Positions 2,180-58,364 of a DNA stretch of 64,000 bases are shown piece by piece. Numbering within the stretch: position 1 is the stretch's first letter; each line of letters begins with the position of its first letter. This DNA comes from Dactylorhiza incarnata (lineage: Eukaryota; Streptophyta; Magnoliopsida; Asparagales; Orchidaceae), in contig JAWHQI010000028.1 of NCBI GenBank assembly GCA_033032865.1, positions 10,745,001-10,809,000 of the forward strand. Direction: 5' to 3'. The translations under genes were made by a program, and so were the position numbers. A model generated the notes under the pieces. It did no database searches, had not been told where the DNA came from, and saw only the letters and a list, made by a program, of their open reading frames with translations.

Positions 2180-2181
2180 AG

Positions 2182-2199
2182 TGGTATCAAAGCCAGGTT
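2182..2199 (+). other. Element A primer-binding site (initiator Met tRNA type)
   Basis: TGGTATCAAAGC starts two bases after the LTR end. It differs at one position from TGGTATCAGAGC, the complement of the plant initiator methionine tRNA 3' end used by most Ty1/copia elements. Confidence 0.88.
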
Positions 2200-2260
2200 G
2201 GTCAAGAAAGACATAACTTTCTGACCAGATCCTATAAAGGAATAGTCTTATCTGAATTGA

Positions 2261-4810: not shown

Positions 4811-4818
4811 ACTCCTTC

Positions 4819-7046: not shown

Positions 7047-7051
7047 AAAGG
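7047..7051. repeat. Target duplication AAAGG, left copy
   Basis: AAAGG at 7047-7051 is repeated exactly at 11904-11908 on the far side of the inserted element, as expected for a 5-bp integrase duplication. Confidence 0.9.
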
Positions 7052-8202
7052 TGTAACATCCCCCAAACAGCTAGACCCCTAGGATGGTGTTGTCATGAAT
7101 AGGGGATGACAAAACCATAGGAAGCACAAAAGGAGCATAAAAGCTTAAGAAAGAAGATGAAAACCACCTTGGACTACAAATAGCAATTTCCAGTTATCAA
7201 GCTTAGGGTTGGACTTTAGGGCCTCACCTTGACCCTTTGAACCCAACATAGCATACATAACCCTTTAGGGGTTCCCTTAGAGCACCAAGGACCCATTAGG
7301 GTCAACCAAAGATGCCAAATTGACCAAAATCAACCCTAACCCCAAATTGGTCAAAGTAGCCCAATTAGGGTCAATTGGCCTCCACCATGCCAAATTGACC
7401 TTTCCCCTACCCTTATAAGGATATTAGAGACCCAATGGAATAAAAAACCCCTTCATGGGGCCAACAATTTGGCCAATTTGACCCAAGTCAACTCTAGCCC
7501 TATTTTGGTCAAACCAACACCTTTTGGATAAATTGGCCCAATTGGGGCACCACCATGACTCAACCAACTTTGGGTGGTGTCAAGGGACTCAAGACACACC
7601 ACTTGGACCAGTCAACCCATCAGTTGACTAAGTTAACACCTCAAGTCAACACTTGGTCAACCTTGCCTAAAAAGAGGGAAAAAGGCTAACTCAAGCTCAA
7701 TCCACTTGGGCTAGGACCAATTGAAGTGACACACTAGCCTCATGAGGCTGAAATTACATGGAATGCCACTCAATTTCTAGAAGGGCGTGACTAGGAGAGA
7801 GAAAATTGGAGTTTTCCCCTTTAATGAAGAGAGAAAAAGAGGAAAAGAGAAGAGAGTTAATGGTGGGAGGCCATGGGCCACCCCATTCATCTCCCCACAG
7901 CCTCCATTCATCTCCTCATTGAATTCTAAGATGTTTTCCAGCCTTTCCCATGCCATCCGGTGGAGAATTCAAGAATTTTCAAGTGAAACCGAAATGGCCA
8001 TTAATGGCACTCCACCATTAAGCCTTCCCCTCCTCAAATTGACCCTTCCATCACCTTCAGAGGGGGATATCAGTTGGAATCGAGTCCTAGATCATTGTAT
8101 TTGGTGGAGAATTGAGAGATCGACAAGGAGCTCAAGGAGGGTGGTCGGCCATGGAAAATCTGTGAAACAACCACCATCAAGCCCGATTGGAGGTCTGGTT
8201 CT

Positions 8203-8289
<87 letters not shown>

Positions 8290-11200: not shown

Positions 11201-11903
11201 ATGACCCCTTGGTCTATAGGTTTGTATGGGCATTCCTATAAATCAATGGTTACATTTCTATTGTGTACTTATCTTTACTTACCGTTCTTTACTTGCTCTT
11301 TACCATTCTATTACTGCTTCAACTATTTGTATACACATGTGTAGTTGTAGACATTTCCTGTAAACAAGATCCGCCGTCATCTGCTTTGTTTTATACCCCT
11401 TACTGTCCTCTGCTTCATCCTCCCGCACGGTGCCTATGAGTCATTGGGGGTGGGGTGGGGAACATAAGGCTTAGTCTTTTTGACTAACGGTCGCTGGACC
11501 ATATCATTTTAGGGGATCGAGGAGACGCAGCAGCACCAGAGGCCGGTGTAGACGGAGGCGGGCCAGTCTAGTACAGGAGCACCAGATTCAGGATCAGTGA
11601 GTGATTAGTAGTTAGCTTCTGCGAGTGATCTTGTAGTGAGGACATGATGTACAAGGCATGAGCCCTTTATTATTGTAACTGTCGTTATTTCAGTTATATC
11701 ATGTGGACATTTATATATATAGCATGTGATTTGTGGACTTGAACTTCTATTTGTTCGTTTATTCTTTTCTTCTTCTGTGATCGAAATGGCCGGCAGGATC
11801 GACGCTTTGTAGTGGCGACCTTACCGTCTATTGGTGTCACCGCAAAGCGGCGGTTCTGGGCATAAGACCTAGTTTTGTGGCGGAATAAAAATGGGGTCTT
11901 ACA
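7052..11903. mobile_element. 4.85-kb insertion in element A reverse transcriptase, probable solo LTR (Ty3-type)
   Basis: The insertion starts TGTAACATCCCCC, ends GGGGTCTTACA, and has a perfect 5-bp duplication (AAAGG). TG/CA ends and 5-bp duplications mark LTR retrotransposons, and this pair of ends is usual for plant Ty3 LTRs of Del/Tekay or Tat type. I see no internal primer-binding site, polypurine tract, second copy of the ends or retroelement protein. The simplest reading is a very long solo LTR left by unequal recombination; the alternative is a large non-autonomous derivative. Features inside are a (CT)n run (8209-8286), a GC-rich patch (8380-8560) and otherwise unique-looking AT-rich DNA. 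Open frames in it show no recognisable domain. Confidence 0.75.
8209..8286. repeat. (CT)39 microsatellite
   Basis: An uninterrupted run of about 39 CT units lies within the inserted LTR. It accounts for the Ser/Leu run in the overlapping open frame, which is not a real gene. Confidence 0.95.
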
Positions 11904-11908
11904 AAAGG
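11904..11908. repeat. Target duplication AAAGG, right copy
   Basis: It matches 7047-7051 exactly. The interrupted RT reading resumes directly after it. Confidence 0.9.
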
Positions 11909-12802
11909 TTTGCCAACCTAATACAGGGGGAGTTTGAGATGAGCAGTATGGGAGAGCTAAAGTACTTTCTAGGCCTCCAAGTGAAACAGTCTGATGAGGG
12001 AATCTTCATCTCTCAGACCAAGTACACTAGGGAGCTTATACTGAAATTTGGGATGGAATCAGCCTCCACCATGAAAACTCCCATGGGGTCCAACATTTCC
12101 TTGGACAAGGATGAGAAGGGCAAGGCCTTTGATGAATCCATGTACAGGTGCATCATTGGATCCCTATTGTATTTAACAGCTAGTAGACCAGATATTATGT
12201 ATGCTACATGTGTATGTGCTAGCTACCAGGCTTGTCCTAAGGAATCTCACTACTCAGCTGCAAAGAGGATTTTGAGATACCTTAAAGGCAGCCTACATCT
12301 TGGCCTTTGGTACCCTAAGAACAATGATTTAGAACTAACTGGATTTTCAGATGCAGATTTTACAGGGTGCAAAGAAGACAGGAAAAGCACAAGTGGCACT
12401 TGTCAATTCCTAGGAAGAAGGTTGATATCATGGAGCAGCAAAAAGCAGACAAGTGTGGCTATATCCACTGCTGAGTCTGAATACATTGTTGCAGGAAGTT
12501 CTTGTGCACAGCTACTGTGAATTCAACACCAACTAGAGGACTACAACCTCAAGGTAAGTGATTCTCCACTCTATTGTGACTCATCCAGTGCTATCTCTAT
12601 TGCTTAGAATCCTGTCTCACATAGCAGGACCAAGCACATAGAGATAAGATATCACTTTTTAAGAGAACATGTTGAATGTAAAGACACCTGCCTTGAATTT
12701 GTCCCCACTGACAGTCAAGTTGCTGACATCTTTACAAAGCCATTGGATGAGGCAAAGTTTAATTCCTTCAAGATTGATCTAGGAATGTTGAATGTAGAAT
12801 AA
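11909..12802 (+). pseudogene. pol: Element A pol, second part: reverse transcriptase C-terminus and RNase H
   Basis: The reading continues the RT broken at 7046. It has the connection block [17 protein letters not shown], then [17 protein letters not shown] and RNase H with the acidic residues in FSDADFTG and STAESEY. Two in-frame stops follow: TGA at 12518 where the family has tryptophan, and TAG at about 12605 where it has glutamine. The reading ends with the usual DIFTKPLD block and a TAA at 12800. Splitting of one gene by the 4852-bp insertion is certain, because reading frame and homology rejoin across the AAAGG duplication. Confidence 0.93.
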
Positions 12803-12965
12803 ATGCCAAACATCTTCTTATTCCAATAATCTTTGATGCTATTCTATTGTCTCACTTATGCAATTAAAGTATTGTGTTTTTGACTCACAAATTTGTCTCA
12901 TCTACAACCTTAGTGACATGGTTAGGACTTCACTCAAGCAGATCGTAAAAGGTCAAACATTCAAG

Positions 12966-13130
12966 TAGTTAGATCAGCTGAAACAAAAAGCCTGTCTCAG
13001 CTGAACCGCTAAGACAGCAGGGAAACATCTCAGCTAAATCGCTGAGACTACTAAATCTGTCCCAGCGGTTGACTTCCACCTTGTCCCAGCAGTCATGGTA
13101 GTCGTCTCAGCAGTTCCGCTGAGACAGGCT
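12966..13130. promoter_or_regulatory. Internal dyad-motif array upstream of element A third ORF
   Basis: The GTCTCAGC / GCTGAGAC half-sites of the element A LTR recur here as spaced inverted pairs: 12992-13001 with 13008-13017 (6-base spacer) and 13104-13111 with 13118-13125 (6-base spacer), plus degenerate copies between. The array lies between the end of pol and the third ORF, about 110 bp upstream of a TATA box. Spacing and order copy the LTR promoter region. Function is inferred. Confidence 0.7.
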
Positions 13131-13238
13131 GGTCTCTTCAAAATTTGTCTAATTGCACCCCAATTAACCTAATTCCCCGCAAAATTATAAGTTCACTAAA
13201 CTTTAATTATAAGGGCTAATCTTGAAACTAAATTAGGT

Positions 13239-13248
13239 TATATAAATA
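13239..13248 (+). promoter_or_regulatory. TATA box upstream of element A third ORF
   Basis: TATATAAATA is a strong plant TATA match, 107 bp upstream of the ATG at 13346. A CT-rich stretch ending in CAG (about 13312-13325) lies between them and could serve as a splice acceptor. Element G has the same order of signals before its third ORF. Confidence 0.6.
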
Positions 13249-13345
13249 GGCAATCTAAATTAGTGAAAGGTACATTACCCATCTTTCCTATCCGCCGAGA
13301 CGAATCACCTACTCCTCTGTCCCAGCGCATCCTTCTACCACAACA

Positions 13346-16217
13346 ATGGCTCCCAAAAGCTCTAAAGATCTTCTTGAAGGATATGAGATTGTCAGGAATG
13401 GCTTTGCCCATGCTTCTGAAGAAATAAAGGGAGTGATTCAACTCCTTGAAGACCAAGGCCTTGAATTCCTCCTGTCTGAACCCTGTGTCATTCTCAGAAC
13501 TGAAGTTCTGGAATGGTTTGGCCATGCCAAGTTATCCACCTCCAAGTCTTCCCTCAAGTCAAAGATTGGAGAAGATAGAATAAAGATAACCCCAACAAAG
13601 TTACAAAAAGCCTTAATCCTTCCATCCTACAGTCATAGTGAGGAGGAAGACATCTCAGAGAAAGACAAGAAAAAGGCTCTGAAATGGATTGGGTACAATG
13701 ATGCCAAAACAGGATCATTGAAAAGGAAAATTTTCAACCAGAAAGGAAAACTCTTATCAGATATAGTGGGAAAGGCTATCCTTTGCAAGCCAGGGTCCCA
13801 TGACACAATTTCACAGTTCATGTTTGATCTCATGACTAGGATAATTCTCAAAAAGAAAACCTCTTGGGGAGTTGTCTTATTCCAAAGAATCAAGGAATGC
13901 CTGCTGGCACCAAACATGGGCAGAATTCTATCTCTATACCTACTCCAAACCAACCCTGATAAGTTCAGCAAATCCAAAGGAGGAAATCTTCATTATCTCA
14001 AGAGAATGGACATTAATACCCTGGATAGGTTCACCAGGGTGCTTCCAATGAGTCAGCCCACTATGGCAAAAGAAAAGGAGAAGATAGGATCCAAATCCAC
14101 AAAGAAAATTAGACTAATAATGTCAAGCTCTGAGTCTGACCACTCAGATGAAGATGAAGATGATGGTGCTGACTTTGGGTCACACAACATACTTGACAAG
14201 GATGCTACAAAGGATGACATGTCAACTGACATTGTCCCTTCATAGGTGCTGGTCTAAGAAATATCTCCAGGTAGCTAATACATTAACTACTCACTACTCA
14301 TTTAGTTCATTGACTATAGACAATCAATTAGGTACTCATTTTTGACACTTGTGCAATGTGGACAACAACTCCTCAAGGACTGATGAGTGATCCAAATGAG
14401 GGGGAGCAACAACCACAACAAGTCTCCCTAGATATAGTGGATATCAATGACAATGAGAAGAACAAGGAGCCTTCTCCTCAGGACTTGCAAGGTCAGATTG
14501 ATACCTTTATTTTCAATCTAGAAGAAAGACTTAAGCTAAATCCTGATAATGAACCAGCCCTCTGGGATTTACCCTCACCAGGACATCCTGATGCCCCTTT
14601 TGAGGGGGAGCTACAGCAAGAGCCACAAGTTCAAAGGGATGATGATGTTCTTGGTAAGCCCTATAAACTAACCTTTAGAATTTCTAAGTAAATTAACTCT
14701 TCTAACTAATTGACACAGCCTTTCTGGACTCATCTGACAAAGATGCTCTCTCTGAGGGGGAGGAGCAAGAAAATGAAGCTGATGAAATAGATGATTATGA
14801 TGCTGCTCAAGTCCAACTAATCACACTGAAGATATAGTGGCTGAGAAGGTGGATGCTCCACCTGCAGAATGGCATGATCCCCCAGTCCAAATTGCACTCA
14901 ATATTATCAACCCTCCAAGTCCACCGAGGCCCCCAGCCCCAATGATCAATGTTCAACAAGCCTCCACTTCCAACTCACCTAATGAGAATATTCTCAATGC
15001 TATCAACCAGCTGCTAAAGTCTCATCTCTCTTCCATGAAAGCATATGTGGATCAATCAGTTACAACAGTCAAGGACTATATTGATCATTCCATCGGGAAT
15101 GTGCATACTAAAGTCATGATTGAGGTCAAGGACATAAAGGAGAACACTGGAATGCTCAACAAATAGATGACCAAATGGTTTGACCTTGCTGAGGAGACAA
15201 CGATTACTCAGAATACAATTCTCAGATCCATGGACAAACAACTCAGACTGTCTGAACAAGACATGTCCTATGTAAAAAATTATGTCAGCAAGACAGATGA
15301 GGTGATAACACAGTCAACCAATCATCTCCAAGATTATCTCTACTCCACTTCCATGTAGTTGGATCAAGAAGCTGACAGGAACAAGGATGAGCTGAAAGCA
15401 TATATAGCTAATGTTTTCAACTCTATTGCTAGCTCAGTCACTTCTTCTCAATTGAATTCTGAGGTAGTCAAACTGTAAGAGGTGTTGCAAGCTGATATTG
15501 AGAATGCTTTCCAAACCCCGTCTGGCTCAATCTAAACAGCTAAACAAGATCTACATCAACAAGTATTTGAAGAAGCGAGAAAGGGGGAGGATACAAATAC
15601 TATAATCAATGTGAATTTAACTCTCAAAGTACTACAAGGTACTAGGCTTGCTCTGAATATTCCTATCTTAGATGTCAACAGGGCAGAAGATTGGGATTTT
15701 CCACATCAAGAAGCTATTTCCCAAGACGAGTCTGAAAAAGAGAAGGGAAAGGGAGAAAGTATTGCTGGCTGAGGAATTCATGGCCAAGCAAAGGGATGTA
15801 CAAAATAGAGACCCTGATTATGAATACTAGAGTGATGACTCCAAAGAGATAATACTAAATGTCTGGCTAAGCCATGGTCAAATTGGAAAAGACATTGATA
15901 AGCTCTATCCATCTGAAGAATGGATAAAGCATTTAGAAAGAAACACAGAGAGGTAGAGTTTTCAAAGCTAATCTTGTAAGAAAAGATAACCCAAGAAGAG
16001 TGCATTCCAAAATAAATCCCTAAGACATATCGGTATTTCAAAGGCAAGAGAACGAGAAGAGAATTGTTGAGATTGAGGCTGCAAATGCTGAAAAGACACA
16101 ACCACAAATCTTCCTGAGATCAAAGATGCTGCTGCAGACATATTGGCCTTAGATAAAGGAAAAGTTGTTGTTGACTCTCCTGAGGAATCTTCTTCTTCTA
16201 AGAAAAGAAAACTCTAG
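13346..16217 (+). pseudogene. Element A third ORF (env-like position), broken
   Basis: An ATG at 13346 opens a 299-codon reading frame. It contains the block LLSDIVGKAIL followed by KKKTSWGVVLFQRIKE, which is clearly related to FLSDIVGKVLL...KKKVNWGSIFFGLIKK in element G. The reading then continues in pieces (14356-14691, 14837-15358 and beyond) with stops at 14243 and 15164 and frame changes. The pieces include a Pro-rich linker and heptad-like helical stretches. The last piece ends in a basic SSSSKKRKL and stop at 16215. The position matches the env-like gene of Sireviruses, but I see no clear signal peptide or membrane segment. Basic ends and acidic/Ser stretches would also fit a nuclear or capsid-associated protein. 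Function unknown. Confidence 0.7.
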
Positions 16218-16626
16218 TTGAATGTATAAATGTCTTATGAAAGTCTGGTTGTAAATTGAACCATAATTTATCTAAATGCTTTAGAATTGAACTATGATTC
16301 ATTACATTTTCTGCATTGCTAATGAATGGATGGTTAAGTTTATTATCTTTTGTCATAAGCTAATCTGTGCTATAGTTTAAGTTTCACCAGTGAGTTAATG
16401 ATTAAGTTAATCTGTGATGCCCTGTCATTCTCATCTTATCAAAATTCTGAAATGTTAAACTTGGTTTGTAACATACCTGGCATGTATATCATATCTAATA
16501 TAATATTCCAAATGTCTTGTTAATGATTACATAAGTATGTTATAATGATTATCATGTTGTGAAATCCATGATAAGTATTTTTATGATATGTACTCTAGCA
16601 TTAAGGGTATTCTGTCTTCTTCAAAT
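16218..16626. other. Element A AT-rich 3' untranslated stretch
   Basis: Non-coding AT-rich sequence between the third ORF and the polypurine tract. No conserved signal was seen in it. Confidence 0.5.
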
Positions 16627-16636
16627 AGGGGGAGAT
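16623..16636 (+). other. Element A polypurine tract
   Basis: AAATAGGGGGAGAT directly precedes the 3' LTR. The same 14 bases precede the 3' LTR of element G (61446-61459). The core AGGGGGAG is also found four times upstream in the third-ORF region (14398, 14603, 14755, 15582), resembling the multiple polypurine tracts reported in Sireviruses. Confidence 0.88.
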
Positions 16637-17875
16637 TGTTGGGAATATTACACTCAAAATTCCCTTGATTTGAAGAAGCCTTACTCTTAGTGCTAAGTAC
16701 AAGTTGTATTTGATAAACCCCATTTCCTCCCATAGTTATGCAGGGTTAAGATCATACCAGGGTATGAAGAAAGTTCAGTTGGTGTACTGACAAAACCGTT
16801 GAGACGAGCTCTCTGTCTCAGCTGAATCGCTGAGACAAGGCCAGGAGCCGCTGAGAAGGAGTCTGGGCCAGCTGAGCTGCAGATAGACAAAATCAGCTGA
16901 GACAATTATCTGTCTCAGCGGATCTGCTGAGACAGAACACATGCATCCACTAAGACAGAAAGCTATCTCAGCCCATCCGCTAAGACAGATTCAAATATAC
17001 AGTCGGGCTTTACTTTTGGCGCAAAGAGCTGTAGAGTGAAAGGAATGATCCAATCACTCCCATTATATGTCAGGAGGACATCTGATAGCCGTTGAAATCG
17101 AAGGGAGTATATAAGAAACAATTAGGGCTTTGTAAAGCCTCTCCCTTCACTCACACAAAAAGAACATTACTGTTCCATTGCCGGCAGCCAAGAAAACCTT
17201 CAGCCCTGTTACCTGAAGCTGCAAGGAAAGAAAAGATTGCTCTTCTTGATCAACTCAAGATAGGGCAAGTTGATCCTCACTCTTTCTCTGATGACCAGGA
17301 TCAGTAGAATTAAAGTTGATGCCTTCAAGCTCATCCCAGATTCAAGACTGCTATTGCAGTCATTCTGTAACAGAAGATTAAAAAGTGTATTTCATCTTCT
17401 TCTATTAATCAAACATTTATATTGAAGTAGGAGCTTAATAGTTCTGAGTTGTAGGGCATAGTTGCCTGAGTGTAGGGTTGTCGAGCCTGAGAAGTAGAGC
17501 TGGGTGTGCAGCTTGAGTGTAGGATCATTGGTTGATCTGAGGTATGGTTGTTGAGCCTGAGGTAGGGTTGCTTAGCCTGAGGTAAGGTTTGAGAAAACCT
17601 GAGAGATCCTGAGGGATCTGAGTTGTAAGCTCTTGAAGCTGAGTTTGGTGGTGTTGGCTTTATCTAACTCAGTGTTAGAAAGGTGTAGGGGGAAAGAGGA
17701 CTACTCAAGACACCCTGTCTTGAGGAACCTCTATAAATCTTGGTGTGTTTTCTGGATGCTTGATACTTAACCAACTAGAAATCTTAAAACAGCTAACTTA
17801 TAGCCTAAAGTTAAAGAAACATATTCACCCCCCCACCCTCTAGGTGACTAAGACTACATCCATAACAAACTATCA
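16637..17875 (+). repeat. Element A 3' LTR
   Basis: It starts TGTTGGGAATATT after the polypurine tract and ends ACTATCA. It carries the same dyad array (about 16793-16985), a better TATA box (TATATAAG at 17108-17115), GCCTGAGGTAGGG-type tandem repeats (about 17455-17590) and a shorter, interrupted C run (17828-17838) compared with the 5' copy. Confidence 0.92.
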
Positions 17876-26694: not shown

Positions 26695-26699
26695 AATCA
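26695..26699. repeat. Target duplication AATCA, left copy of element P
   Basis: AATCA directly precedes TGTTGAAACC and recurs at 31402-31406 directly after GGTTTCAACA. Confidence 0.92.
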
Positions 26700-27661
26700 T
26701 GTTGAAACCGATTTCTCGGTCTCGAGTGGAGCTCGGGGCCCTCACCGAAATGAGGGGCAGCTAGCCCTTACCGGTCCCTCGGGAGAGGTAAGGTTGATGA
26801 CTCGAGCCAAGAACGAAGACCCTAGTCTCAGCGAGGAGGTCCCTCCACTAACCCGGAAGATCGTTAAGCGCTTCCCCTCCCAAGCCAAAGCTAAGACTCG
26901 GGCACCTTGGAGAGCTAGAGAGCCCAAACCAAAGCGACCTAGGGAGAGAAGAGCTCAGATAATGAACCGTCTTCTCCAAGGTGCCCTTTGAGGTCTATTT
27001 ATAGATTTTAGTTTGGTGGTCTGTCGATAACCAAATCCCGCTGTCCATTCTCACTATCCGCACACCGGATTGGTCTGTCAACAGCCAAACTCCACTGTTT
27101 GGAGAGGCTAAACGCAGACCACCAGGGGCTCCTTGGTAAAAATCCCTTCCTGGACTTTTACGGGGCGAGCCAGCCCGCTTCGCGACCTCCCTCGCGAGTG
27201 GAGCTCGCGAGCCTCAGGGTCGGCGAACCCCAGAGGTACTATCAGCACTCACTCTAGGCGGGCTCGCCTAGCGGACTCCTTCCTCGGACGGTTGGGCTCG
27301 CTGATAGCGACCTGGCCAAGCCGACTGCCCTCGCGATCGGAGCTCGCGAACCCCTGGGTCGGCGAACCCCAGGATGGCTATCCGCACCCCAAAATGGCTA
27401 ACTGTACCCCAAGAGTAGCTAACTGCACCCCAAGGTTCCGGGCTCGCCTGGCGAGCTCCCTTCTCAGCTGGTCGGGCTCGCATGTACTGCCCTCGCCGAG
27501 TTTCAAAAGAGCCGGTTACCCTCCCTTCGCTGGGCTCGCTCGCCTGCGCAGTCTCTTGCTCTTCCTTGGCCTGCCTCGCCGGAGATCAGGGTTCGCCCCT
27601 CTTGGCTCGCCTCCTTGAGCGCGAGCTTTGGTTGCTTCCTGGCGAATATCGGGGTTGTACA
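26700..27661 (-). repeat. Element P LTR, left copy (inverted)
   Basis: Read on the minus strand it starts TGTACAACCCC at 27661, carries TATAAATA (complement at about 26996-27003) and ends TTTCAACA at 26700. It is the mirror image of 30440-31401. It contains many CTCGCGAG and GGCTCGC words upstream of the TATA box. Confidence 0.9.
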
Positions 27662-27775
27662 CAATCCCCGCTCTTCGCGAGGACTAATGTCTTCGCGAAG
27701 AATCGTCCAACCCCTGATATTCGACCGCTCCTGGATGACCTGTCAGGAATCTTTTGTGGGACCCACCATGCAGGC

Positions 27776-27783
27776 TATAAATA
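27776..27783 (+). promoter_or_regulatory. TATA box of the antisense gene in element P
   Basis: TATAAATA lies 74 bp upstream of the ATG at 27850. A second ATG at 27799 is probably upstream of the transcription start, which favours 27850 as the start codon. The right arm carries the mirrored copy. Confidence 0.6.
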
Positions 27784-27849
27784 TCATCCCGAACCCCCAT
27801 GGGTGCGCGTCGCTTCTTTTCCTTCCTTTCCCGTTCTAGCTGCCGGGAG

Positions 27850-29018
27850 ATGCCGATTTCCGAAGAGGCAGAGGCTCGCCTGAGGGCGATGAGAGCCGGC
27901 GGGCTACCTCCCACGACCAGGGTACCCGCCTGGATGAACCGGCAGCCTCCCGCCCAGTCGCCAAAAACCAAGAAGGCGAAGGCGGTTCGCCTCTCTGGGG
28001 ACGACTCCGTGACGCTGGACTCCTCCCCGGATGATCGCCGCCCCGAGAAGGTATGAGTTGTTCGAATTCACGTCTACAAATTGTTCTTTATTCATTTTCG
28101 CTCGCAGGATACTTTGCCGAGCGAGATTTGTGAGGAACGTGCTGAGGGGTCTCGGAAAAGCCCGCAGGTGGACATGAATCTCGCTGGAAAAGACACCACT
28201 GGTACGATCTGGATCTCACATGCCGTAATATTTATGTCTAAACATATGATCTCTGTTTACTATTTTTCTGCAGTCCCACCACTGAAGTCCCCGATCCGCC
28301 CGTCGTCGCGACCTCCATCTCCGCCTCCTCCAGATAAAATCATAGGGAAGCCCGGGTTCCAGCTTCTCACGAGCGAGGAGACGGGTGGCTCCGCACCGCC
28401 AAAGATTCTCCCGACCAACAGTGCAGCCTATCCTGCCGGACTGGGCAAATCCCTCTACCCCCATTATGGAAACGTGTTTCAGGGTCGTCCTTTGGGTTCT
28501 CGCCCCCCTCTGGGTAAGTGTTATGACCTCGCCAACAACTTACGTGACCTTTCGCTCACTATCTGACCTTGGGAGATCTCGCAGATACTGCCGAGAACCC
28601 GCACACCGATTCCGAATTGGGCGACGACGAAATGTCCCCCCTTCCTGATCAGGTGGAGGACTTCTTAGGGGATCCGCGAGATCCTGAGATGATGAAACAG
28701 CGGGCCGCGGAGCTTTTGCGAAAGCATGGGCGAATGCTGATGGACCTCAACATGCAGGCGAGACGGGACAGGGAAGCTGCCGAGGATAGACATGCAGTCC
28801 TGATGGAGGAATGTGCGAGACTCCGGCAAGCGAGACAGCGCGATCAAGATGAGAGCGCTACGATGCCGGAAGTGCACATAGCGAGGATGAGAGATTACGC
28901 TTTTCTCACGGATCGAGAGGGTCGTTTGGCGGAAGAATACTATAATTCCAGGGTACCGCCGAGGTCCGGGTCGCGGGGTGGCGGCCGGTGGAAATGGCTC
29001 CCCCACGATTCTCGCTAA
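27850..29018 (+). CDS. Four-exon antisense gene of element P (unknown function)
   Basis: Exons at 27850-28050, 28108-28201, 28274-28513 and 28585-29018 join in phase (201+94+240+434 nt, 322 residues). All three introns have GT-AG ends (57, 72 and 71 nt) and are AT-richer than the exons. The protein starts MPISEEAEARLRAMRAGG, has a basic KTKKAKAVRL stretch, a Pro/Ser-rich middle (RPSSRPPSPPPP), an acidic part and a helical, coiled-coil-like C-terminal region rich in Arg, Glu and Ala (from about RAAELLRKHGR). It lies next to the 3' LTR and runs opposite to the retroelement's own sense, the position where extra antisense ORFs are known in Tat-lineage elements. No family domain is recognised. This is the only open spliced gene in the window without a visible lesion. 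Confidence 0.6.
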
Positions 29019-29417
29019 CTGTTTTGTTGTGGAATCATTATTAACGGGTGTGGCTTTTTTAGACAATCTCGCCATGGCTCGCAACTCGCATACTTGCCAT
29101 TCATATGTTGGCTTTATTTCTACTGGCAATCCCGCTTTTTATTATTTCTCGCGTGACGCTAGCAAGTCTTTGTTTTCGTATCATATTGTTCGCGTGCGGA
29201 CCTTCTGTTCTCGCCAAATATATCTCTCGAAAGTGTTGTTTATACTGACCCCGCAGGCTTTTCCCGCTTGCGGACATGATGTGATGTTTTTTGTTGATAC
29301 GCGCGCTCGCTGACGCTTGGACTTCTTCCCGCCTTTTTTATTTTGGCTATAAATAAGCGGTCTTTATCGGGCCAACCACCGCATTTATTCTCGATCCTCT
29401 TCTTTTTCTGTTGCAGA
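28684..29417. other. Loop of the element P palindrome
   Basis: This unpaired segment continues the left arm: the rest of exon 4 of the antisense gene, its stop at 29016, an AT-richer 3' part and another TATAAATA at 29348-29355 that could start a further antisense transcript. The right arm starts abruptly at 29418, right after TTGCAGA. Confidence 0.8.
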
Positions 29418-30251
29418 GATCTCGCGGATCCCCTAAGAAGTCCTCCACCTGATCAGGAAGGGGGGACATTTCATCGTCGCCCAATTCGGAATCGGTGTGC
29501 GGGTTCTCGGCAGTATCTGCGAGATCTCCCAAGGTCAGATAGTGAGCGAAAGGTCACGTAAGTTGTTGGCGAGGTCATAACACTTACCCAGAGGGGGGCG
29601 AGAACCCAAAGGACGACCCTGAAACACGTTTCCATAATGGGGGTAGAGGGATTTGCCCAGTCCGGCAGGATAGGCTGCACTGTTGGTCGGGAGAATCTTT
29701 GGCGGTGCGGAGCCACCCGTCTCCTCGCTCGTGAGAAGCTGGAACCCGGGCTTCCCTATGATTTTATCTGGAGGAGGCGGAGATGGAGGTCGCGACGACG
29801 GGCGGATCGGGGACTTCAGTGGCGGGACTGCAGAAAAATAGTAAACAGAGATCATATGTTTAGACATAAATATTACGGCATGTGAGATCCAGATCGTACC
29901 AGTGGTGTCTTTTCCAGCGAGATTCATGTCCACCTGCGGGCTTTTCCGAGACCCCTCAGCACGTTCCTCACAAATCTCGCTCGGCAAAGTATCCTGCGAG
30001 CGAAAATGAATAAAGAACAATTTGTAGACGTGAATTCGAACAACTCATACCTTCTCGGGGCGGCGATCATCCAGGGAGGAGTCCAGCGTCACGGAGTCGT
30101 CCCCAGAGAGGCGAACCGCCTTCGCCTTCTTGGTTTTTGGCGACTGGGCGGGAGGCTGCCGGTTCATCCAGGCGGGTACCCTGGTCGTGGGAGGTAGCCC
30201 GCCGGCTCTCATCGCCCTCAGGCGAGCCTCTGCCTCTTCGGAAATCGGCAT
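29347..30251 (-). pseudogene. Truncated mirror copy of the antisense gene
   Basis: The right arm holds the same gene on the minus strand from its ATG (30251) through exon 1-3 equivalents and the beginning of exon 4. At 29418 the gene is cut and fused to loop sequence, giving a chimeric tail (DLCNRKRRGSRINAVV) that stops at 29347. A few substitutions separate it from the left copy, for example Pro versus Leu in DSS(P/L)DDRR. Confidence 0.75.
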
Positions 30252-30424
30252 CTCCCGGCAGCTAGAACGGGAAAGGAAGGAAAAGAAGCGACGCGCACCC
30301 ATGGGGGTTCGGGATGATATTTATAGCCTGCATGGTGGGTCCCACAAAAGATTCCTGACAGGTCATCCAGGAGCGGTCGAATATCAGGGGTTGGACGATT
30401 CTTCGCGAAGACATTAGTCCTCGC

Positions 30425-30439
30425 GAAGAGCGGGGATTG
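30425..30439 (+). other. Polypurine-like tract of element P, right copy
   Basis: GAAGAGCGGGGATTG directly precedes the LTR start TGTACAACCCC. The mirror copy lies at 27662-27676. Its presence inside both LTRs shows that both are 3' LTRs. Confidence 0.65.
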
Positions 30440-31401
30440 TGTACAACCCCGATATTCGCCAGGAAGCAACCAAAGCTCGCGCTCAAGGAGGCGAGCCAAG
30501 AGGGGCGAACCCTGATCTCCGGCGAGGCAGGCCAAGGAAGAGCAAGAGACTGCGCAGGCGAGCGAGCCCAGCGAAGGGAGGGTAACCGGCTCTTTTGAAA
30601 CTCGGCGAGGGCAGTACATGCGAGCCCGACCAGCTGAGAAGGGAGCTCGCCAGGTGAGCCCGGAACCTTGGGGTGCAGTTAGCCACTCTTGGGGTACAGT
30701 TAGCCATTTTGGGGTGCGGATAGCCATCCTGGGGTTCGCCGACCCAGGGGTTCGCGAGCTCCGATCGCGAGGGCAGTCGGCTTGGCCAGGTCGCTATCAG
30801 CGAGCCCAACCGTCCGAGGAAGGAGTCCGCTAGGCGAGCCCGCCTAGAGTGAGTGCTGATAGTACCTCTGGGGTTCGCCGACCCTGAGGCTCGCGAGCTC
30901 CACTCGCGAGGGAGGTCGCGAAGCGGGCTGGCTCGCCCCGTAAAAGTCCAGGAAGGGATTTTTACCAAGGAGCCCCTGGTGGTCTGCGTTTAGCCTCTCC
31001 AAACAGCGGAGTTTGGCTGTTGACAGACCAATCCGGTGTGCGGATAGTGAGAATGGACAGCGGGATTTGGTTATCGACAGACCACCAAACTAAAATCTAT
31101 AAATAGACCTCAAAGGGCACCTTGGAGAAGACGGTTCATTACCTGAGCTCTTCTCTCCCTAGGTCGCTTTGGTTTGGGCTCTCTAGCTCTCCAAGGTGCC
31201 CGAGTCTTAGCTTTGGCTTGGGAGGGGAAGCGCTTAACGATCTTCCGGGTTAGTGGAGGGACCTCCTCGCTGAGACTAGGGTCTTCGTTCTTGGCTCGAG
31301 TCATCAACCTTACCTCTCCCGAGGGACCGGTAAGGGCTAGCTGCCCCTCATTTCGGTGAGGGCCCCGAGCTCCACTCGAGACCGAGAAATCGGTTTCAAC
31401 A
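30440..31401 (+). repeat. Element P LTR, right copy
   Basis: 962 bp, TGTACAACCCC to TTTCAACA, with TATAAATA at 31098-31105. It shares with the element E LTR the start, CTATAAATAGAC, GGGAGGGGAAGC, AGGACCTCCTC and the AACA end, so both belong to one Tat-like family. Confidence 0.9.
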
Positions 31402-31406
31402 AATCA
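31402..31406. repeat. Target duplication AATCA, right copy of element P
   Basis: It matches 26695-26699 exactly. Confidence 0.92.
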
Positions 31407-32514: not shown

Positions 32515-34090
32515 TATTAGGGTTCATTCGTTTGGACGGAATTGACTTTTTGGAATTGGCATTAACGATTAGAAATCCAATTCTAATGTTCGGCGCAACG
32601 GAATTTAGGCGGATATTGGCTTTTATATGAAAACCCACGACTTTGACTTTGAAAAAAAAAATCAATTCTTACCTCCGCCCATGTATTTTCCGCATAATCG
32701 AGTCTTTTCGCCAAACTTTTTCAGCCTACACGCGCATTTTTGTCCAGACGTGTATTTTCTGCCGGGCGTGTGTTTTTCGGTCAGGCGCGTGTTTGTCGTC
32801 CGGGAGTGTGTTTTTCGGCTGGGTTTTTATTTTTCGCCCAAGCGGGCGGTTTTTTTGCCCGGGAGCTCCATTTTTCGCTCGGGCGCTCGTTTTTTGCCCG
32901 GGCGGGCGTTTTTTGGCCTGTTGGGCATTTTTCGTCGGGGCGTGTGTTTTTTGCCCGAGAATGCGTTTTTCGGCCGAGCGAGCATTTTTTGACTTTGGCA
33001 CACGTATTTCAACCATCATGAACGTTTTTCAGTCGGGCGCACGTTTTTTCACCCGGGCACGCGTTTTTTCAGCTGGGCGCAGATTTTTCCGCCCGGGCGC
33101 GCATTTTTCGCCCAAGCGTGCATTTTTCGCCCGAACGCGCATTTTTCGCCAGGACACGCGTTTTTCTGCCAACCGGATGTTTTCGCCTGAGCGCACATTT
33201 TTTGCATGTGCGCCCGTTTTTAGCTCGGGCGCGCATTTTTCAGCCGGTCGCTCGTTTTTCGACCCGGGCGCGCCATTTTCGACCAAGCGCGCATTTTTCT
33301 CCTTGGCGCTTGTTTTTCGCCCGGGAGCGCATTTTTTGCCCGGGAGCGCGTTTTTCGCCCGGGCTCTCATTTTTCGGTCGGGCACGTATTTTTTCTCTTG
33401 GACGCACATTTTCCGCCCGAGCGCGTGTTTTTCGTCGAGCACGCGTTTTTCTCCCTGAAGCAAATTTTCTGCGCGGGAACACGTTTTTTGCCCAGCCGCG
33501 CGTTTTTAGACCGGGCACGAGGTTTTCTTCCGTGAGAGCGTTTCTCACGCGAGCGCACATTTTTTGCCAGACCACGTTTATTTCGGCTCGGACGCTCGTT
33601 TTTTGCTTGTGCGCGCATTTTTCTCCCCACCGCACTTTTTTGCCCGGGCCGCTAACGCGCGCATAGGCCAAAAAACAAGCACTCGGGCAAAAAATGCGCT
33701 CCAGTGAAAAAAATGTGCGCTCGGGAAAAAAATTCGCGTCCGGACAAAAAATGCGCTTCTGTGTCAAAAAATGCATCGAAGAACTCGCGATCGGGCAAAA
33801 AACACAGTCCTGGGCCAAACAAAAGCACACCTTGGCGAGAAACACACATTCTGGAGAAAAATGCGCGCCTGGGAAAAAATGCGACTTGGGAAAAAATCTG
33901 TGCTTGGGTGAAAAACGTGTATCTTAAAAAATATTATGCAATTTAATGCGTTCGACGCTGATGCCTATTTTGAGTTTTATAAAATTATTATATAATGTCG
34001 ATTCCAATACCAATTCCATCATTCAACCAAACAACATTTGTGCCTCAATTCCAATTCTGTTGACTGAATTCAATCTTACAGCCGAACAAC
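32515..34090. repeat. Foldback-like block with degenerate inverted ends
   Basis: Near the left edge GTTTGGACGGAATTG and GGAATTGGCATT occur. Near the right edge the complement of GGAATTGGTATTGGAATCGA and CCAAACAACAT occur. The ends are therefore roughly inverted and GGAATTGG-rich, as in some foldback or MITE-like elements. Between them lies the 19-bp minisatellite. No target duplication could be fixed. Confidence 0.4.
32690..33930. repeat. 19-bp minisatellite with an internal orientation switch
   Basis: The unit is about TTTTTCGCCCGGGCGCGCA. Between 32870 and 33000 successive T-runs are 19, 19, 19, 19, 19, 19 and 20 bases apart. About 50 degenerate units run in one orientation to about 33655. 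About 14 units then follow as the reverse complement (A-runs with TGCGC and CGGGC) to 33930. The period, not a multiple of three, and the near absence of stop words give long open frames on both strands; these have no coding meaning. Confidence 0.88.
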
Positions 34091-35881: not shown

Positions 35882-36290
35882 ATGAGCTCTAAGGTATATG
35901 CTTCAACACAACCTCTAGTGTGTAACTTGAATAATTTCACACACTAGAAGGCCAGAATAAGACTCTACATGAATTCCATTGATGAAGACATCTATGATGT
36001 TCTTCTCACAGGTCCTCCAGCTCCAGTCAGACAAAAAAGGCAGGAGAATCCTCAACAACAGAGGTTGTCCCAAGAAAGGAATGGACAGAGGCTGAGAAGA
36101 AGGTCAAGGCATGTGATGCCAAGTCCATGAACATTCTGGTTTCAATAATGTCAGATGACATTTTCCAGAAGGTTGTTGAATGCCAATCAACAAAAGAAAT
36201 TTGGGATTCACTCACCACAATGGTAGAAGGAAGTGCTGATGAAAGGAAGGATAGAAAGTCCCTTCTCATATCCTAGTATGAGAAATTTGG
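35882..36290 (+). pseudogene. gag: Element B gag fragment
   Basis: ATG at 35882 starts MSSKVYASTQPLVCNL, then a TAG at 35945 in place of tryptophan, then KARIRLYMNSIDEDIYDV, close to element G gag (KARIRLYMNSIDEEIFNV). A frameshift near 36040 is followed by the SDDIFQKVVEC...IWDSL block and a second TAG (36274). The gene is cut at 36290 by the junction with element C. Confidence 0.88.
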
Positions 36291-37330
36291 CACAGAGCGC
36301 ATGATCACCAGCTTTCAGTGCGCACGATCAGTTGATCGTGTGCCACTGATCGTGCGCCCTGTTTTCTATAAATATCCAGCCCGTGAAATTAGGTCGGACG
36401 ACATTCCAGCTCCGCCGTTTTTGAGTCATGTTCGCCTCTTCCGCCCCCTGCATCATCTTCCACCACTAGGAGGTGCTCTGGGCTTGTTCTTCACGCCAAT
36501 CTTGAGTTGGAGTTTCCTCTCGGCCTCCTCCTTCATCCTAGAGCTTCAAAGGAAGATCTAGCCGCCACTACCTTCAAGAAAGAGGAAGTTTGCAACCTCT
36601 ACCGGGTCGTGAGATGAAGAAGACGGGTTCATAGGAGAGTCGTGACAGCTCTCTCTACCCCGGACGTAGTTGAAGACCGAGCTTGGACGCGGATTGACAA
36701 CCCAGCGATTCCAACCGTGAATCTACAACGAGCCTTCGGATTTGGTCGATTTCTTACCTTGTTCTTCTCTTATTGATGTGTATATGTTGTAGATCTCTAA
36801 ATATTATGATGAAGTGGCACATTAACTTGTTTGTATTTCTATATTTCATGTCTATGTGAAATGCTTTTGTGGTTTATGTGATTTGAGGAGCGCCCCATTC
36901 CATCCTCCATCCCACCATCGCGTTCATTTGCCGCACTAGCAATTGCTAGTGGCGTGCTTGTCGAAGAGGTGCTTGCGACCCTCATTCCGTTTGCCTACTC
37001 GTCCATCCGCGCTTACGAAGTAGCGTGCTCAAGGCCTACCTAGTCTCCATCCCGCCTCGCGAAGCATTGCATAACGGCATTGCATATGAGTAGTTGTAGT
37101 TGTTTTTCTTTATTTTCCACAATCCAAAACCCCCATTTCCGCATCCATCCGACTTAAAGGACTTCAATCTCAAGTCCTGCCTCAATAGTAAACTCCACCT
37201 TACTGTGTTCCTTTGAGATCGATACTTGGGGATTCATTCCCATTTTATATTACTTGAACGATCGGTACACTGCCGTTTCGTTCCGCAGTCTTACTACCGC
37301 CTATAGCGGTGTGCTAAGATTTGCGCATCA
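36291..37330 (+). repeat. Element C 5' LTR, truncated at its 5' end
   Basis: It corresponds to 40944-41984 with one 1-bp length difference and few substitutions. The missing first ~418 bp and the abrupt join to element B gag show a deletion. CACAGAG, present at the join in the LTR, is also part of the gag sequence in related element G (GACACAGAGAC), which suggests microhomology at the breakpoint. Confidence 0.9.
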
Positions 37331-37336
37331 AGTTTT

Positions 37337-37354
37337 TGGCGCCGTTGCCGGGGA
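37337..37354 (+). other. Element C primer-binding site (tRNA-Asp type)
   Basis: TGGCGCCGTTGCCGGGGA lies six bases after the LTR end. It is the standard site of Athila-lineage Ty3 elements. Confidence 0.9.
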
Positions 37355-37545
37355 CCACAGACGTGTGAGTTTTCTGGAGAGGGAGAATCTGAGATTAAAG
37401 CCCTTCCATTTGTGTATTGCATTCTTTTTGTTTTATTTCTTCTTATCCTGTTTTACTTTTTATATTAGGTTGTTTAGTAAATTTTTGTAGGGTGTATTAT
37501 TTTGCACAATAGTGTTTTCCATTTGAATCTTGTTATCTTCACATT

Positions 37546-38784
37546 ATGTGGGCTTCCTTTAATATTCGTTGCCGCTTTTGTGGAGATATATCGCATGCTA
37601 GTGATAGATGCCCATCGGGAGATAATAGCCCTAGGACTCAAGGCCCAGCATATGGAGCACCGACTTCGTCTGGTACTCCATATGGTGCGCGTAAGTCCTA
37701 TGGCTATTCTGCTGCGCCTTTACCGTCATACTTCTTTTCGGCTTCAGCACCTGCTGTGCCAAAGAAGCCCGCAAGGCAGTGCTTGTTTTGTCAGAGCACG
37801 GATCATTACTTGAAGGACTGTGCCGAGTATCTTCGCCAATTGGACGAGGATGACGAGCCGGATATCCGGATCGTCCTGACTCCTACTTCTGGCAGCATAC
37901 CTTCAACATCCGGTTTTGTGTCCATTTCATCTTCAAGTTTTGAAGGGTATGATGTGGACACAGTCACCAGATGTGTGGCTGATCCAGGCTCTGACATGAC
38001 TGAGCCCATCTCCCCTGTACATATATCACCATGCATAGATTCGATTCTTTGTGAGGAATCGGTGCTTGATTCTTTTCCAAGCCCTATCCCTCCCCCTATT
38101 GTGCATTCTATTACATTTATTTCTGATAACATTATTGAAGATGCGTTGCAAGAGGAGGCTGGCGATCTTTGTTTTGTGTCTATTCCTATGGAGGAGCACA
38201 ACCTTCTAGATGAAGAGGATTTTTCCTCAACACCGGTGGAGGAAGTGCAAATCCTAGAGAAGGCCACCATTGATCCCACCGAACCTTGCGGCATTGTCAA
38301 CAATGCCGACATTATTTTACTTCCCCAACCTGATGGGAGTGATACCGGGACCACTCCCCCGCTTGATTTTTATTTAAGTCATTCTTCTTGTTTATTTCTT
38401 GATTCCCTTTCTTCATCTGAGCCTGTGCAGGTTGAGTCTTCACAGGTACTTCAGGAGGACTTGGAGCATTATGCTCAAGTCAATGATGAGAGCATCCTCT
38501 TATGTGACGAGGTTGATCCCCCCTCCGTAGAGGAAGCCCCACTCATTGTCTTCTCCTCCTGCTGCCTCCCTGGAGATGATACCTTGCTGGGCAAGGATAG
38601 ATTTGGTGAGTTGAGTGAGGATTCCTCCTCTTCTTATTTTTTATTCCCTCTACCTGTGACGAGCAGGTATTATTTATATTCGGGTAGAGGCGTGACTGTT
38701 CTGTCGCCGTATCGGTACCCGCTACCGACACGCATATTAGAACAGTTACCTGTGCACTTTTCTTTTCATAGACCCATTAGCTAG
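37546..38784 (+). CDS. Element C gag-type protein with two zinc knuckles
   Basis: A 412-codon open frame starts at ATG 37546. Two CCHC knuckles fit C-x2-C-x4-H-x4-C exactly: Cys9, Cys12, His17, Cys22 and Cys79, Cys82, His87, Cys92. The remainder is acidic and rich in Ser, Pro and Asp/Glu, with no protease motif. Knuckles at the extreme N-terminus suggest that the upstream Gag capsid part has been lost or that the protein is a nucleocapsid-only product binding element RNA. The frame has no lesion. With the near-identical LTRs this suggests a fairly recent copy. It would need proteins of an autonomous Athila-like partner to move. Confidence 0.72.
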   Translation: MWASFNIRCRFCGDISHASDRCPSGDNSPRTQGPAYGAPTSSGTPYGARKSYGYSAAPLPSYFFSASAPAVPKKPARQCLFCQSTDHYLKDCAEYLRQLDEDDEPDIRIVLTPTSGSIPSTSGFVSISSSSFEGYDVDTVTRCVADPGSDMTEPISPVHISPCIDSILCEESVLDSFPSPIPPPIVHSITFISDNIIEDALQEEAGDLCFVSIPMEEHNLLDEEDFSSTPVEEVQILEKATIDPTEPCGIVNNADIILLPQPDGSDTGTTPPLDFYLSHSSCLFLDSLSSSEPVQVESSQVLQEDLEHYAQVNDESILLCDEVDPPSVEEAPLIVFSSCCLPGDDTLLGKDRFGELSEDSSSSYFLFPLPVTSRYYLYSGRGVTVLSPYRYPLPTRILEQLPVHFSFHRPIS

Positions 38785-40525
38785 AACTGTTTTCAATTTG
38801 AATAAGTCGTGCTGGGAGGACAATAACCCCAGTAGTTATCTTACTTTTCCTGCATTTTTATTTCTTCTAATCATGTTTAGTTAGCTGTAGTTTATTTTAG
38901 TTTGTCTTTTTATTTTGTTTTGTGGAGCTCACCCCTGCAGGACTCATTGCAAATTCTGAATGGCGGGTTTGCTTCAGATTTCCACGCACCTTCTGGTATG
39001 CTCACTTGCTGAGCATTGGGTAACTTCTTCCCTAGCTTTCGATTTTGATTTTCACTGTCATATCATTATGTTGTATTGTTTAGATTAAGTCTGGGGGAGA
39101 GCCGCTATATGTTACCCACTGCACGTGCACATCTCATTTGCATACTAGAAGTATTTTAATTTCAGTTATTTAGTATTGTTCATCTTCACTGTACACCACT
39201 GCACCCACTTTAGCGCGCACTCGCTTGTTTGTATGCTCCCGTATATTCAATTCTTGGACGTGATGTTGGAAGTGCTGTATTAGCCAAAATAATTGCAAGA
39301 TGGAGTGGAATGTTGACTCGTGTAGTGCTCTAGTTGAATACTCGTGTTTGCATAGGGATTTGAGTAGAATTAGTTTTTATTTATGCTTCTAATTTATAAT
39401 TTGTAGATTTGCGTAGATTTTAATTTATTTTACTCGAAATGGTGAATGTGGTTGAATCTTGTGGTAGTGTGGTATTGTGTGTAGGCGAATGTGAGGTTCG
39501 TGTTGCTCGAGTCGGGAGGAAGGATTACCTTTCTCGGGGGCTAAGAACTTGCCCCAAGCGACTCTCGAATCATGGGTGCGAATGACTTGCAAGTTGAGCG
39601 TGACATAGGCCATCTATTTGGCAAGCTTGAGCTTTGTTCTACCATTCCTATATGCTAACCGTTGATAGCCTATTTTGTGCCTACCCGATCTTTTGATTCA
39701 GCTCCACCATACTTCACCAAGGCCTAAAAGCTAATCCTATTATCGCAACCAAAAATTAAGCTAAAAGCATTTATGAATTGTAATTTTTCAATGCGGTGCG
39801 GTGATGCGAAACTTCAGTGTTGATGTGGAAGTTTTAAAAATGTCTATGTGCTGAGAATTGTGCTAATTAATTTGAGGATAAAAAGAAAAGAAAAATAAAA
39901 AGAAAAAAATATATATATTTATCCCTAGCGCTTTATTTGAAGCATATTTTGGTATTGATTATTGTAGGCCGTGTGCACACCCGGTTTCAAAGTCAAGTCT
40001 GGGGGTGTGTTACAAGTGTATTATTGGGGCTGCTATGATTTAGCACTTTTGTGTGCTCATTTGGGTTGCGATTAGCCTTCACGTTTATCTTTGCATTCCA
40101 AACTGTAACCCAAGCCTCATGTATACCTAAAGTCCTATCGATTCGTCTTGTGAGTTCACTAGCGCCGTGGAGAGAGTGTGACCGGGCGAGCATATGGTTC
40201 TCGACGTTGATGGATTTCAACGGAGATAATTCCGAGTTCCGGTCTTGGGTAACATTCACCTGCGCATCTAGCTTACTTTCGTACTACGCGAGACCACGAG
40301 ATTCACCAACATTCCATTTTTGAGTAAAAATAAATTCCTTTTTACGCATTTGCACTTTTATAAAGTAGCTAGCATATGTAAAAACTTCTTCTAATGAACT
40401 TCTATGCACACTAGTAGGAATCTTCGCATTCTATTCCGTGTTTGCAATTTTTTTAGTTAGCTATGCTTTTCCTACTCCGCCGGATATGTTTGCTCGGGAC
40501 GCGCAAACAGGTAAGTCTGGGGGTG
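38785..40525. other. Element C non-coding 3' region with three polypurine-like copies
   Basis: No ORF is supported. The word AAGTCTGGGGG occurs at about 39087, 39994 and 40513. The last lies directly before the 3' LTR and is the likely functional polypurine tract. Confidence 0.65.
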
Positions 40526-41984
40526 TGATGAGTCCCAATTATATACATATTTTCGAACTCATTTGGGCCGATTTTCTAGTCTTTGCACCACACTTTAGGC
40601 TTGTTTTCATTTATATTTAATAGCCGTCTATTATTCCACTCTTAGTGCACATGTATGCCCATTCTTGGTGCGATCCCTTGTTTTCCTATAGTCCTGGAGG
40701 TTTTCATGCAGGTTCATGGATCGTGCGATGCTCGGAGTCTGTTTGGGGGCAATTTCTGCCTGAAATGCCACTGATCGTGCGTTTCCTTCACGCACGATCA
40801 GTTGCTCATGCGCCTCTGATCGTGCGAGTTCATTTGCTGCCCAAAAAGAGCTTCGGATTTTGGTCGTGCGTTTTCTACGCACGATCGTGCGCACGGTATT
40901 GCGCTTTATATTTTTTCTACAGTTTTGTTTTGCAGGTTTCGGGCACAGAGCGCACGATCACCAGCTTTCAGTGCGCATGATCAGTTGATCGTGCGCCACT
41001 GATCGTGCGCCCTGTTTTCTATAAATATCCAGCCCGCGAAATTAGGTCGGACGACATTCCAGCTCCGCCGTTTTCGAGCTCTGTTCGCCTCTTCCGCCCC
41101 CTGCATCATCTTCCACCACCTGGAGGTGCTCTGGGCTTGTTCTTCACGCCAATCTTGAGCCGGAGTTTCCTCTCAACCTCCTGCTTCATCCTAGAGCTTC
41201 AAAGGAAGATCTAGCCGCCATTACCTTCAAGAAAGAGGAAGTTTTCAACCTCTACCGGGTCGTGAGATGAAGAAGACGGGTTCATTGAAGAGTCGTGACA
41301 GCTCTCTCTACCCCGGACGTAGTTGAAGACCGAGCTTGGACGCGGATTGACAACCCAGCGATTCCAACCGTGAATCTACGACGAGCCTTCGGATTCGGTC
41401 GATTTCTTGCCTTGTTCTTGTCTTATTGATGTGTATATGTTGTAGATCTCTAAATATTATGATGAAGTGGCACATAAACTTGTTTGTATTTCTATATTTC
41501 ATGTCTATGTGAAATGCTTTTGTGGTTTATGTGATTTGAGGAGCGCCCCATTCCATCCTCCATCCCACCATCGCGTTCGTTTTGCCGCACTAGCAATTGC
41601 TAGTGGCGTGCTTGTCGAAGAGGTGCTTGCGACCCTCATTCTGTTTGCCTACTCGTCCATCCTCCCTTACGAAGTAGCGCGCTCAAGGCCTACCTAGTCT
41701 CCATCCCGCCTCGCGAAGCATTGCATAGCGGCATTGCATAGGAGTAGTTGTAGTTGTTTTTCTTTATTTTCCACAATCCAAAACCCCCGTTTCCACATCC
41801 ATCCGACTTAAAGGACTTCAATCTCAAGTCCTGCCTCAATAATAAACTCCACCTTACTGTGTTCTTTTGAGATCGATACTTGGGGATTCATTCCCATTTT
41901 ATATTACTTGAACGATCGGTACACTGCCGTTTTGTGCCGCAGTCTTACTACCGCCTATAGCGGTGTGCTAAGATTTGCGCATCA
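40526..41984 (+). repeat. Element C 3' LTR
   Basis: About 1459 bp, from TGATGAGTCCC (start could be two bases earlier) to GCGCATCA. The U3 part has repeated TGATCGTGCG / CGCACGATCA, including a pair at 40773-40782 and 40792-40801, ending just before TATAAATA at 41020-41027. Confidence 0.9.
40773..41012. promoter_or_regulatory. Dyad array of element C LTR
   Basis: At least six TGATCGTGCG-type half-sites in both orientations lie here, immediately upstream of the TATA box at 41020. The 5' LTR holds the equivalent block at about 36315-36360, including CGCACGATCA, GT, TGATCGTG. Confidence 0.7.
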
Positions 41985-52707: not shown

Positions 52708-52708
52708 A

Positions 52709-52726
52709 TTGGTATCAGAGGGTGTT
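52709..52726 (+). other. Element G primer-binding site
   Basis: TTGGTATCAGAGGG after the LTR end is the initiator Met tRNA-type site. Confidence 0.87.
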
Positions 52727-52818
52727 GATTCCTTACAGGCTAACACCTGAATCACAAAGATCAATTAGATCTTAAATTTATCTAGAGTTTTTGTTTATTT
52801 ATTTTTTGTTAAAAACTC

Positions 52819-54897: not shown

Positions 54898-54918
54898 TTT
54901 ATTTTTCTATCATTGCAG
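54898..54918 (+). other. Acceptor-like signal between gag and pol of element G
   Basis: A T-rich stretch ending in CATTGCAG lies directly after the gag stop. Element A has CTCCTTCTTGCAG at the same place (4812-4824). It could be a splice acceptor for a pol message, or simply conserved sequence. Confidence 0.35.
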
Positions 54919-58110: not shown

Positions 58111-58139
58111 AAATTAAAATTTCTATTTATCACCCAAAA

Positions 58140-58285: not shown

Positions 58286-58364
58286 ACATAAAGTCTTTTC
58301 GACTTCTGTTTTTTATTAGGTTTTTGTCGAACCCCGCTCCCTAAATGCGCCCCCTTCTCCGGTC

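Follow-up and report, generated by a model that had tools for sequence, protein, structure and literature searches.

A 64,000-nt stretch of the genome of the orchid Dactylorhiza incarnata, hereafter the window, carries at positions 26700-31401 a long palindrome built from a long terminal repeat (LTR) retrotransposon. The 3' end of the element is present twice, head to head, as an inverted dimer of 4702 bp in which two arms of 1984 nt are separated by a spacer, or loop, of 734 nt; the insert amounts to these 4702 bp plus a 5-bp duplication (Table 1). Both outer termini, TGTTGAAACC on the left and GGTTTCAACA on the right, are intact unique 5' (U5) ends with AATCA on both sides, and the polypurine-like tract and 3' internal region lie inside. 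The gag and pol genes and the 5' half are absent from this copy, which therefore cannot move by itself. When the arms are aligned, 7 of 1984 positions differ, without gaps and all by transitions. CpG positions hold five of the seven differences (the chance of at least five is ~0.001 if sites are random). An earlier note, made from the sequence alone, had described the near-identical arms, a loop continuous with the left arm only, a 962-bp LTR in opposite orientation at each edge, a polypurine-like tract inside each LTR, the perfect AATCA duplication and the two U5 ends, and all of these held up in our comparisons.

Table 1. Features of the palindrome and its borders (window coordinates)
Feature	Position	Strand	Remark
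Target-site duplication AATCA, left copy	26695..26699	+	AATCA present once in the empty sites of paralogs
Left arm: 3' end of the element with U5 at the outside; sense strand on -	26700..28683	-	colinear with 18/18 first-sampled relatives
Left LTR, 962 bp, unique 3' (U3) region inside, U5 at outer edge	26700..27661	-	
TATA-like CTATAAATAG in left LTR	26995-27004	-	
Polypurine-like tract adjoining U3, left arm	27662..27676	-	
Putative antisense gene start, inward-running; TATA-like 27776-27783, ATG 27799 or in-frame 27850	27776..28683	+	
GCGAGATC, final 8 bases of the shorter minus strand as copied in the left arm, inferred primer end	28676..28683	+	
Loop, 734 bp, continuous with left arm and with relatives	28684..29417	-	
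Turn: palindrome GATCTCGC, relatives GCTCTCGC; A at 29419 matches short strand, not family	29418..29425	+	
Right arm: 3' end of the element, cut short at the turn; sense strand on +	29418..31401	+	
Polypurine-like tract, right arm	30425..30439	+	mirror of left arm
Right LTR, 962 bp, U5 at outer edge; TATA-like 31097-31106	30440..31401	+	
Target-site duplication AATCA, right copy	31402..31406	+	

Searches of the whole assembly (3.27 Gb in 3184 contigs) identify the left arm plus loop (2718 bp) as the 3' end that ordinary members of an abundant Ty3/gypsy (Retand-like) family carry. This segment is colinear at full length with the 3' pieces of all 18 relatives sampled first, and the U5 terminus TGTTGAAACCGATTTCTCG has 8319 exact matches genome-wide. 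The LTR length of 962 bp agrees with that of full-length relatives: the 5' LTR of one, L002, covers query 1-962, two such copies have 5' LTRs of 962 and 963 bp, and their LTRs also identify both outer ends of the palindrome as U5. The inner U5 end in two full-length relatives is followed by TTTTGGTGCGG, at the candidate primer-binding-site position, and the target duplications of full-length relatives were 5 bp in both cases examined (ACGAC and CTTGT). The minus-strand frame L028:883-3501 matches RVT_1, RNase H models, RVT_3, H2C2 and rve, in gypsy-type order, and the pol frame of another relative, L027, matches RVT_3, H2C2 and rve.

Assignment to a lineage draws on the region downstream of pol. 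An antisense frame of one relative (L007:3418-4764, plus strand) weakly matches PF04195 (TRP28), at 26.2 bits for a cut-off of 26.2; it is located beyond the turn of the palindrome. No Pfam family was matched by three other antisense frames of L007 or by two frames of the palindrome. If pol is taken to stop where its frame does, the distance from there to the LTR is ~5.8 kb and ~5.3 kb by coordinates in two relatives, and the palindrome holds only part of this region. In the account of Retand elements by Vicient (2025, PMC11963269), antisense TRP28 open reading frames (ORFs) occur in 97% of clusters, and the region from pol to the 3' LTR spans 2,933-6,566 bp. The relatives found here share with the elements of that account the long pol-3' LTR region, the antisense ORFs and the TRP28 domain; unlike them, the palindrome itself is without gag, pol and the 5' half. 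Going by these sequence features, the Retand lineage of Ty3/gypsy would be the best filing for the family. An inverted-repeat DNA transposon (fold-back or Mutator-like element, MULE) was also considered for the palindrome and rejected, because the arms are the LTR and 3' internal region of an LTR element.

The history of the insertion can be read from the host DNA. Six paralogs of the host flanks, 84-92% identical over the aligned stretches, all run across the insertion point. At the empty site L021-L024 have GATTAATCAA, with one AATCA only, and L025 has the same with one change (AATCG); this makes five of the six paralogs visible at the site, the alignment of L026 ending before the site's end. 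Since the paralogs are uninterrupted through the site and have one pentamer, the palindrome arrived in one integrase-type event with two U5 ends. Exact LTR termini and a 5-bp target duplication are both present, as in integrase-type integration, but the pairing of one U3 with one U5 end is not seen, U5 standing at both ends. We are highly confident that this is a real, single-event insertion of a U5-U5 inverted dimer.

With 8319 exact matches to its U5 terminus, the family is abundant enough for two independent head-to-head insertions, or a later inversion or recombination between two copies, to be considered. The earlier note had listed two insertions as a possible refutation of its reading. 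Such an origin is contradicted by the single shared 5-bp duplication, by paralogous sites that are continuous without other loss or gain at the insertion point, and by private variants common to both arms (below); the one-pentamer sites in effect rule it out, and we judge it very improbable. A different concern is that palindromes are a known artefact of some libraries. An assembly artefact arising from a fold-back read is hard to reconcile with arms that differ at seven sites, with two flanks that are different host DNA, contiguous in six paralogs, and with a duplication length equal to that of the family, so that we give it very little credence.

Both arms share four substitutions, at 26866, 27501, 28493 and 28534, that occur in none of the relatives scored (all 38 at one site and 37 at each of the other three, where one relative has a gap). 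Six of the seven arm differences were unseen in any relative, three being derived in the left arm and three in the right; the seventh, T at 28628 in the right arm, was found in 1 of 37 relatives. In an 18-copy set of the family, the median number of differences over the same stretch is 31 sites and the closest pair differs by 1; the nearest sampled relatives lie 14 sites from the left arm. The private shared variants point to one source for both arms and, together with arm differences unseen in relatives, suggest that the arms probably started out alike and accumulated changes afterwards. At a substitution rate of 1.3e-8 per site per year, the insertion would be about 0.14 million years old, a minimum if the arms underwent gene conversion. 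No surviving source copy outscoring the nearest relatives was found among 40 scored matches, the arms themselves aside. Position 29405, 13 bases before the turn, is T in the palindrome and C in 38 of 38 relatives, and is private among those sampled.

The turn, where the loop meets the right arm, preserves some record of how the two copies were joined. Relatives read TTGCAGAGCTCTCGCTG there and the palindrome TTGCAGAGATCTCGCGG; the other arm, followed on that strand, continues as CTCAGGATCTCGCGG. This places the crossover between 29418 and 29419, adjoining a shared TCTCGC. Among random crossovers (200,000 draws on one relative), a run of at least six matches started within ~3 nt at a frequency of ~0.0018 and anywhere in 18 nt at ~0.0036. 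A short strand ending in GCGAGATC pairs at 7 of its last 8 positions with the long strand, the mismatch falling at the penultimate base; in the opposite direction, a strand that stops at 29418 pairs at 2 of 8, and for one that stops at 29425 the six terminal bases are paired. Random site pairs reached 7 of 8 with a paired end at a frequency of ~0.0005 (400,000 draws).

The mismatched base is itself informative. Position 29419 is A in the palindrome, as the short strand dictates, and C in 38 of 38 relatives; exact 17-mer matches to this context numbered 113 genome-wide with C and 0 with A, which excludes a family variant with A at 29419, and hence eight perfect bases, as the template. The earlier note had recognized nothing beyond CAG-type microhomology at the turn. 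CAG homology alone would need an extra untemplated A, and this claim gives way to the 7 of 8 pairing of the short strand, which fits better. The turn bases thus appear to fit priming by a short strand, whose 3' end would correspond to 28683, on a minus strand that reached further. If it was the primer, the short strand had not yet copied the loop, and the template would therefore have been another minus strand; on this one mismatch, the evidence favours a second cDNA as template.

We propose that a pair of incomplete minus-strand cDNAs, both from the same source, came together, probably inside a single particle with two RNAs. The shorter cDNA, with its 3' end GCGAGATC, would have annealed to the longer through 7 of its last 8 bases and been extended along it to its 5' (U5) end, and the partner strand would have been extended or flap-trimmed to give a linear duplex with U5 at each end. 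Integrase would then have processed and joined both U5 ends. In the established scheme of reverse transcription the minus strand starts at U5; each strand of the duplex would begin where one minus strand starts and end in the copy of another such start, and U5 would thereby stand at both ends. Neither plus-strand priming at the polypurine tract nor transfer at the primer-binding site would be needed for the dimer. That the inverted dimer came from two minus-strand cDNAs joined before integration is, in our estimate, about an even bet. The fuller account, in which two sister minus strands primed on each other, the direction being legible from one retained mismatch, and a plant Ty3/gypsy integrase paired two U5 ends in a living cell, we hold with equally divided confidence.

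The earlier note had instead derived the palindrome from one minus strand, copied as far as 29417, that folded back near 28683 and served as its own template up to its 5' end, the duplex dimer then being integrated. In the form weighed here, the fold lies near 29417-29425, priming is at 28683, and a hairpin is opened later into the duplex. Part of this proposal stands, in that an inverted cDNA derived from minus strand was integrated once by two U5 ends; the intramolecular fold from 29417 is less favoured by the turn bases. A snap-back would give the same anatomy and arms alike at birth, and a strand ending at 29425 would have the six paired terminal bases TCTCGC. However, folding from 29425 would leave C at 29419, so that the A found there requires repair toward the arm. 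For a strand ending at 29418, a single terminal base would be paired, and the six matching bases beyond it would be due to chance (~0.002-0.004). The hairpin would also have one U5 end and require an extra opening step, whereas a mutually primed pair would be a two-ended duplex directly. We consider the snap-back unlikely, though a serious candidate.

The dimer may never have existed free. Integrase might have attached two separate partial cDNAs by their U5 ends, one to each target strand, and the resulting break would have been healed through microhomology of the inner tails. Joining of two donor ends is known in vitro, and this route would yield U5-U5 ends, a 5-bp duplication, unequal inner ends and a turn of short homology without a free dimer. 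It needs a double-strand break mended across kilobases of tail, and nothing at the locus separates it from joining before integration; we think it rather improbable.

Several points weigh against two mutually primed minus strands. The evidence comes from one locus only, and joining before or after integration gives no distinguishing mark. The inferred primer leaves its penultimate base unpaired, and since the longer strand has to extend to 29425 or beyond, the 3' end or flap of that strand needs processing. Snap-back through TCTCGC with repair of one mismatch gives the identical sequence. The turn statistics were picked after the turn had been seen, with one relative and random site pairs as controls. 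Finally, none of the 40 scored matches scores like a source carrying the shared variants, and arm-to-arm gene conversion after insertion could have made those variants.

The note had also suggested searching for other inverted pairs of this LTR family, and no second palindrome turned up in limited samples, which are small, overlapping and biased to close relatives. The complete junction was present in 1 of 40 scored matches (from 2857 candidates), namely the window itself, and an amplified palindromic family is ruled out among these matches. Opposite-strand pairs within 20 kb were absent from two sets of 38 other places each and, the window aside, from the first 100 of the 113 17-mer places; among the first 100 of the 8319 U5 ends the closest opposite pair was 15 kb apart. 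In 38 sampled 3' pieces of relatives (~5 kb each), no piece had matches to the left arm plus loop on its two strands at once.

The prediction that transcripts would form ~2-kb double-stranded RNA (dsRNA) needs revision. The TATA-like boxes of both LTRs face outward, so that LTR transcripts would leave the element and no 2-kb dsRNA would come from them. A further TATA-like box, that of the putative antisense gene, faces inward and has its mirror on the minus strand; the gene start is placed by sequence reading and the ORF list, antisense ORFs being a Retand feature. This inward promoter could produce a hairpin RNA with a stem of ~0.9 kb or more, so that a shorter form of the prediction may survive.

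Other repeats surround the palindrome. A G+C-rich tandem array of ~19-bp units (TTTTTCGCCCGGGCGCGC; 32717-33649) lies ~1.3 kb beyond the right edge of the insertion, and 44241-44324 matches the U5 part of the palindrome LTR at 79% over 86 positions, perhaps as a remnant of a related family. A Ty1/copia-like element at 51498-62523 is bounded by LTRs of ~1064 bp with 96.6% identity; its reverse transcriptase frame (PF07727) lies at 56818-58107. An older copia-like element occupies 939-17875, with repeats 92.9% identical, an integrase frame at 5266-6369 and a reverse transcriptase piece at 11873-12517. The LTR pair at 36289-41984 (~5.7 kb, 96.4% identical), with TGGCGCCGTTGCC after the left LTR, is possibly non-autonomous; the one frame tested, 37513-38781, gave a sub-threshold zinc-knuckle match and no reverse transcriptase or integrase match. 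An Rfam scan of the window gave no match at gathering score.

By its title, the closest precedent is a Moloney murine leukemia provirus with inverted LTRs that integrated by two U3 sequences (Colicelli and Goff 1988, J Virol 62:633, cited in PMC2651531). It resembles the palindrome in its inverted LTRs and two like ends, but those ends are U3 and belong to a retrovirus, whereas here two U5 ends belong to a plant retrotransposon. In Triticeae, rice and maize, template switching has been reported to give complex LTR elements in direct orientation with 5-bp duplications (Sabot and Schulman 2007, PMC1950507). Like the complexes described there, the palindrome has a 5-bp duplication and a single integration, and it would be an abnormal product of reverse transcription on two templates. 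In those complexes three LTRs and two internal regions all face the same way and the outer ends are ordinary, whereas the palindrome has two inverted LTRs, none in the 734-bp loop, and its switch would have been onto DNA. No plant U5-U5 palindrome was found in the titles and abstract openings of the open-licence papers that the literature searches listed.

The palindrome joins the known aberrant products of reverse transcription as a new variant. It indicates that reverse transcription is able to yield integration-competent inverted dimers, and that the rule of one U3 plus one U5 end is not absolute for a plant integrase. Because the U5 terminus is present thousands of times in this one genome, the rate and turn bases of other U5-U5 dimers are countable. 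Some of the long palindromes in genome assemblies are probably real products of retrotransposition.

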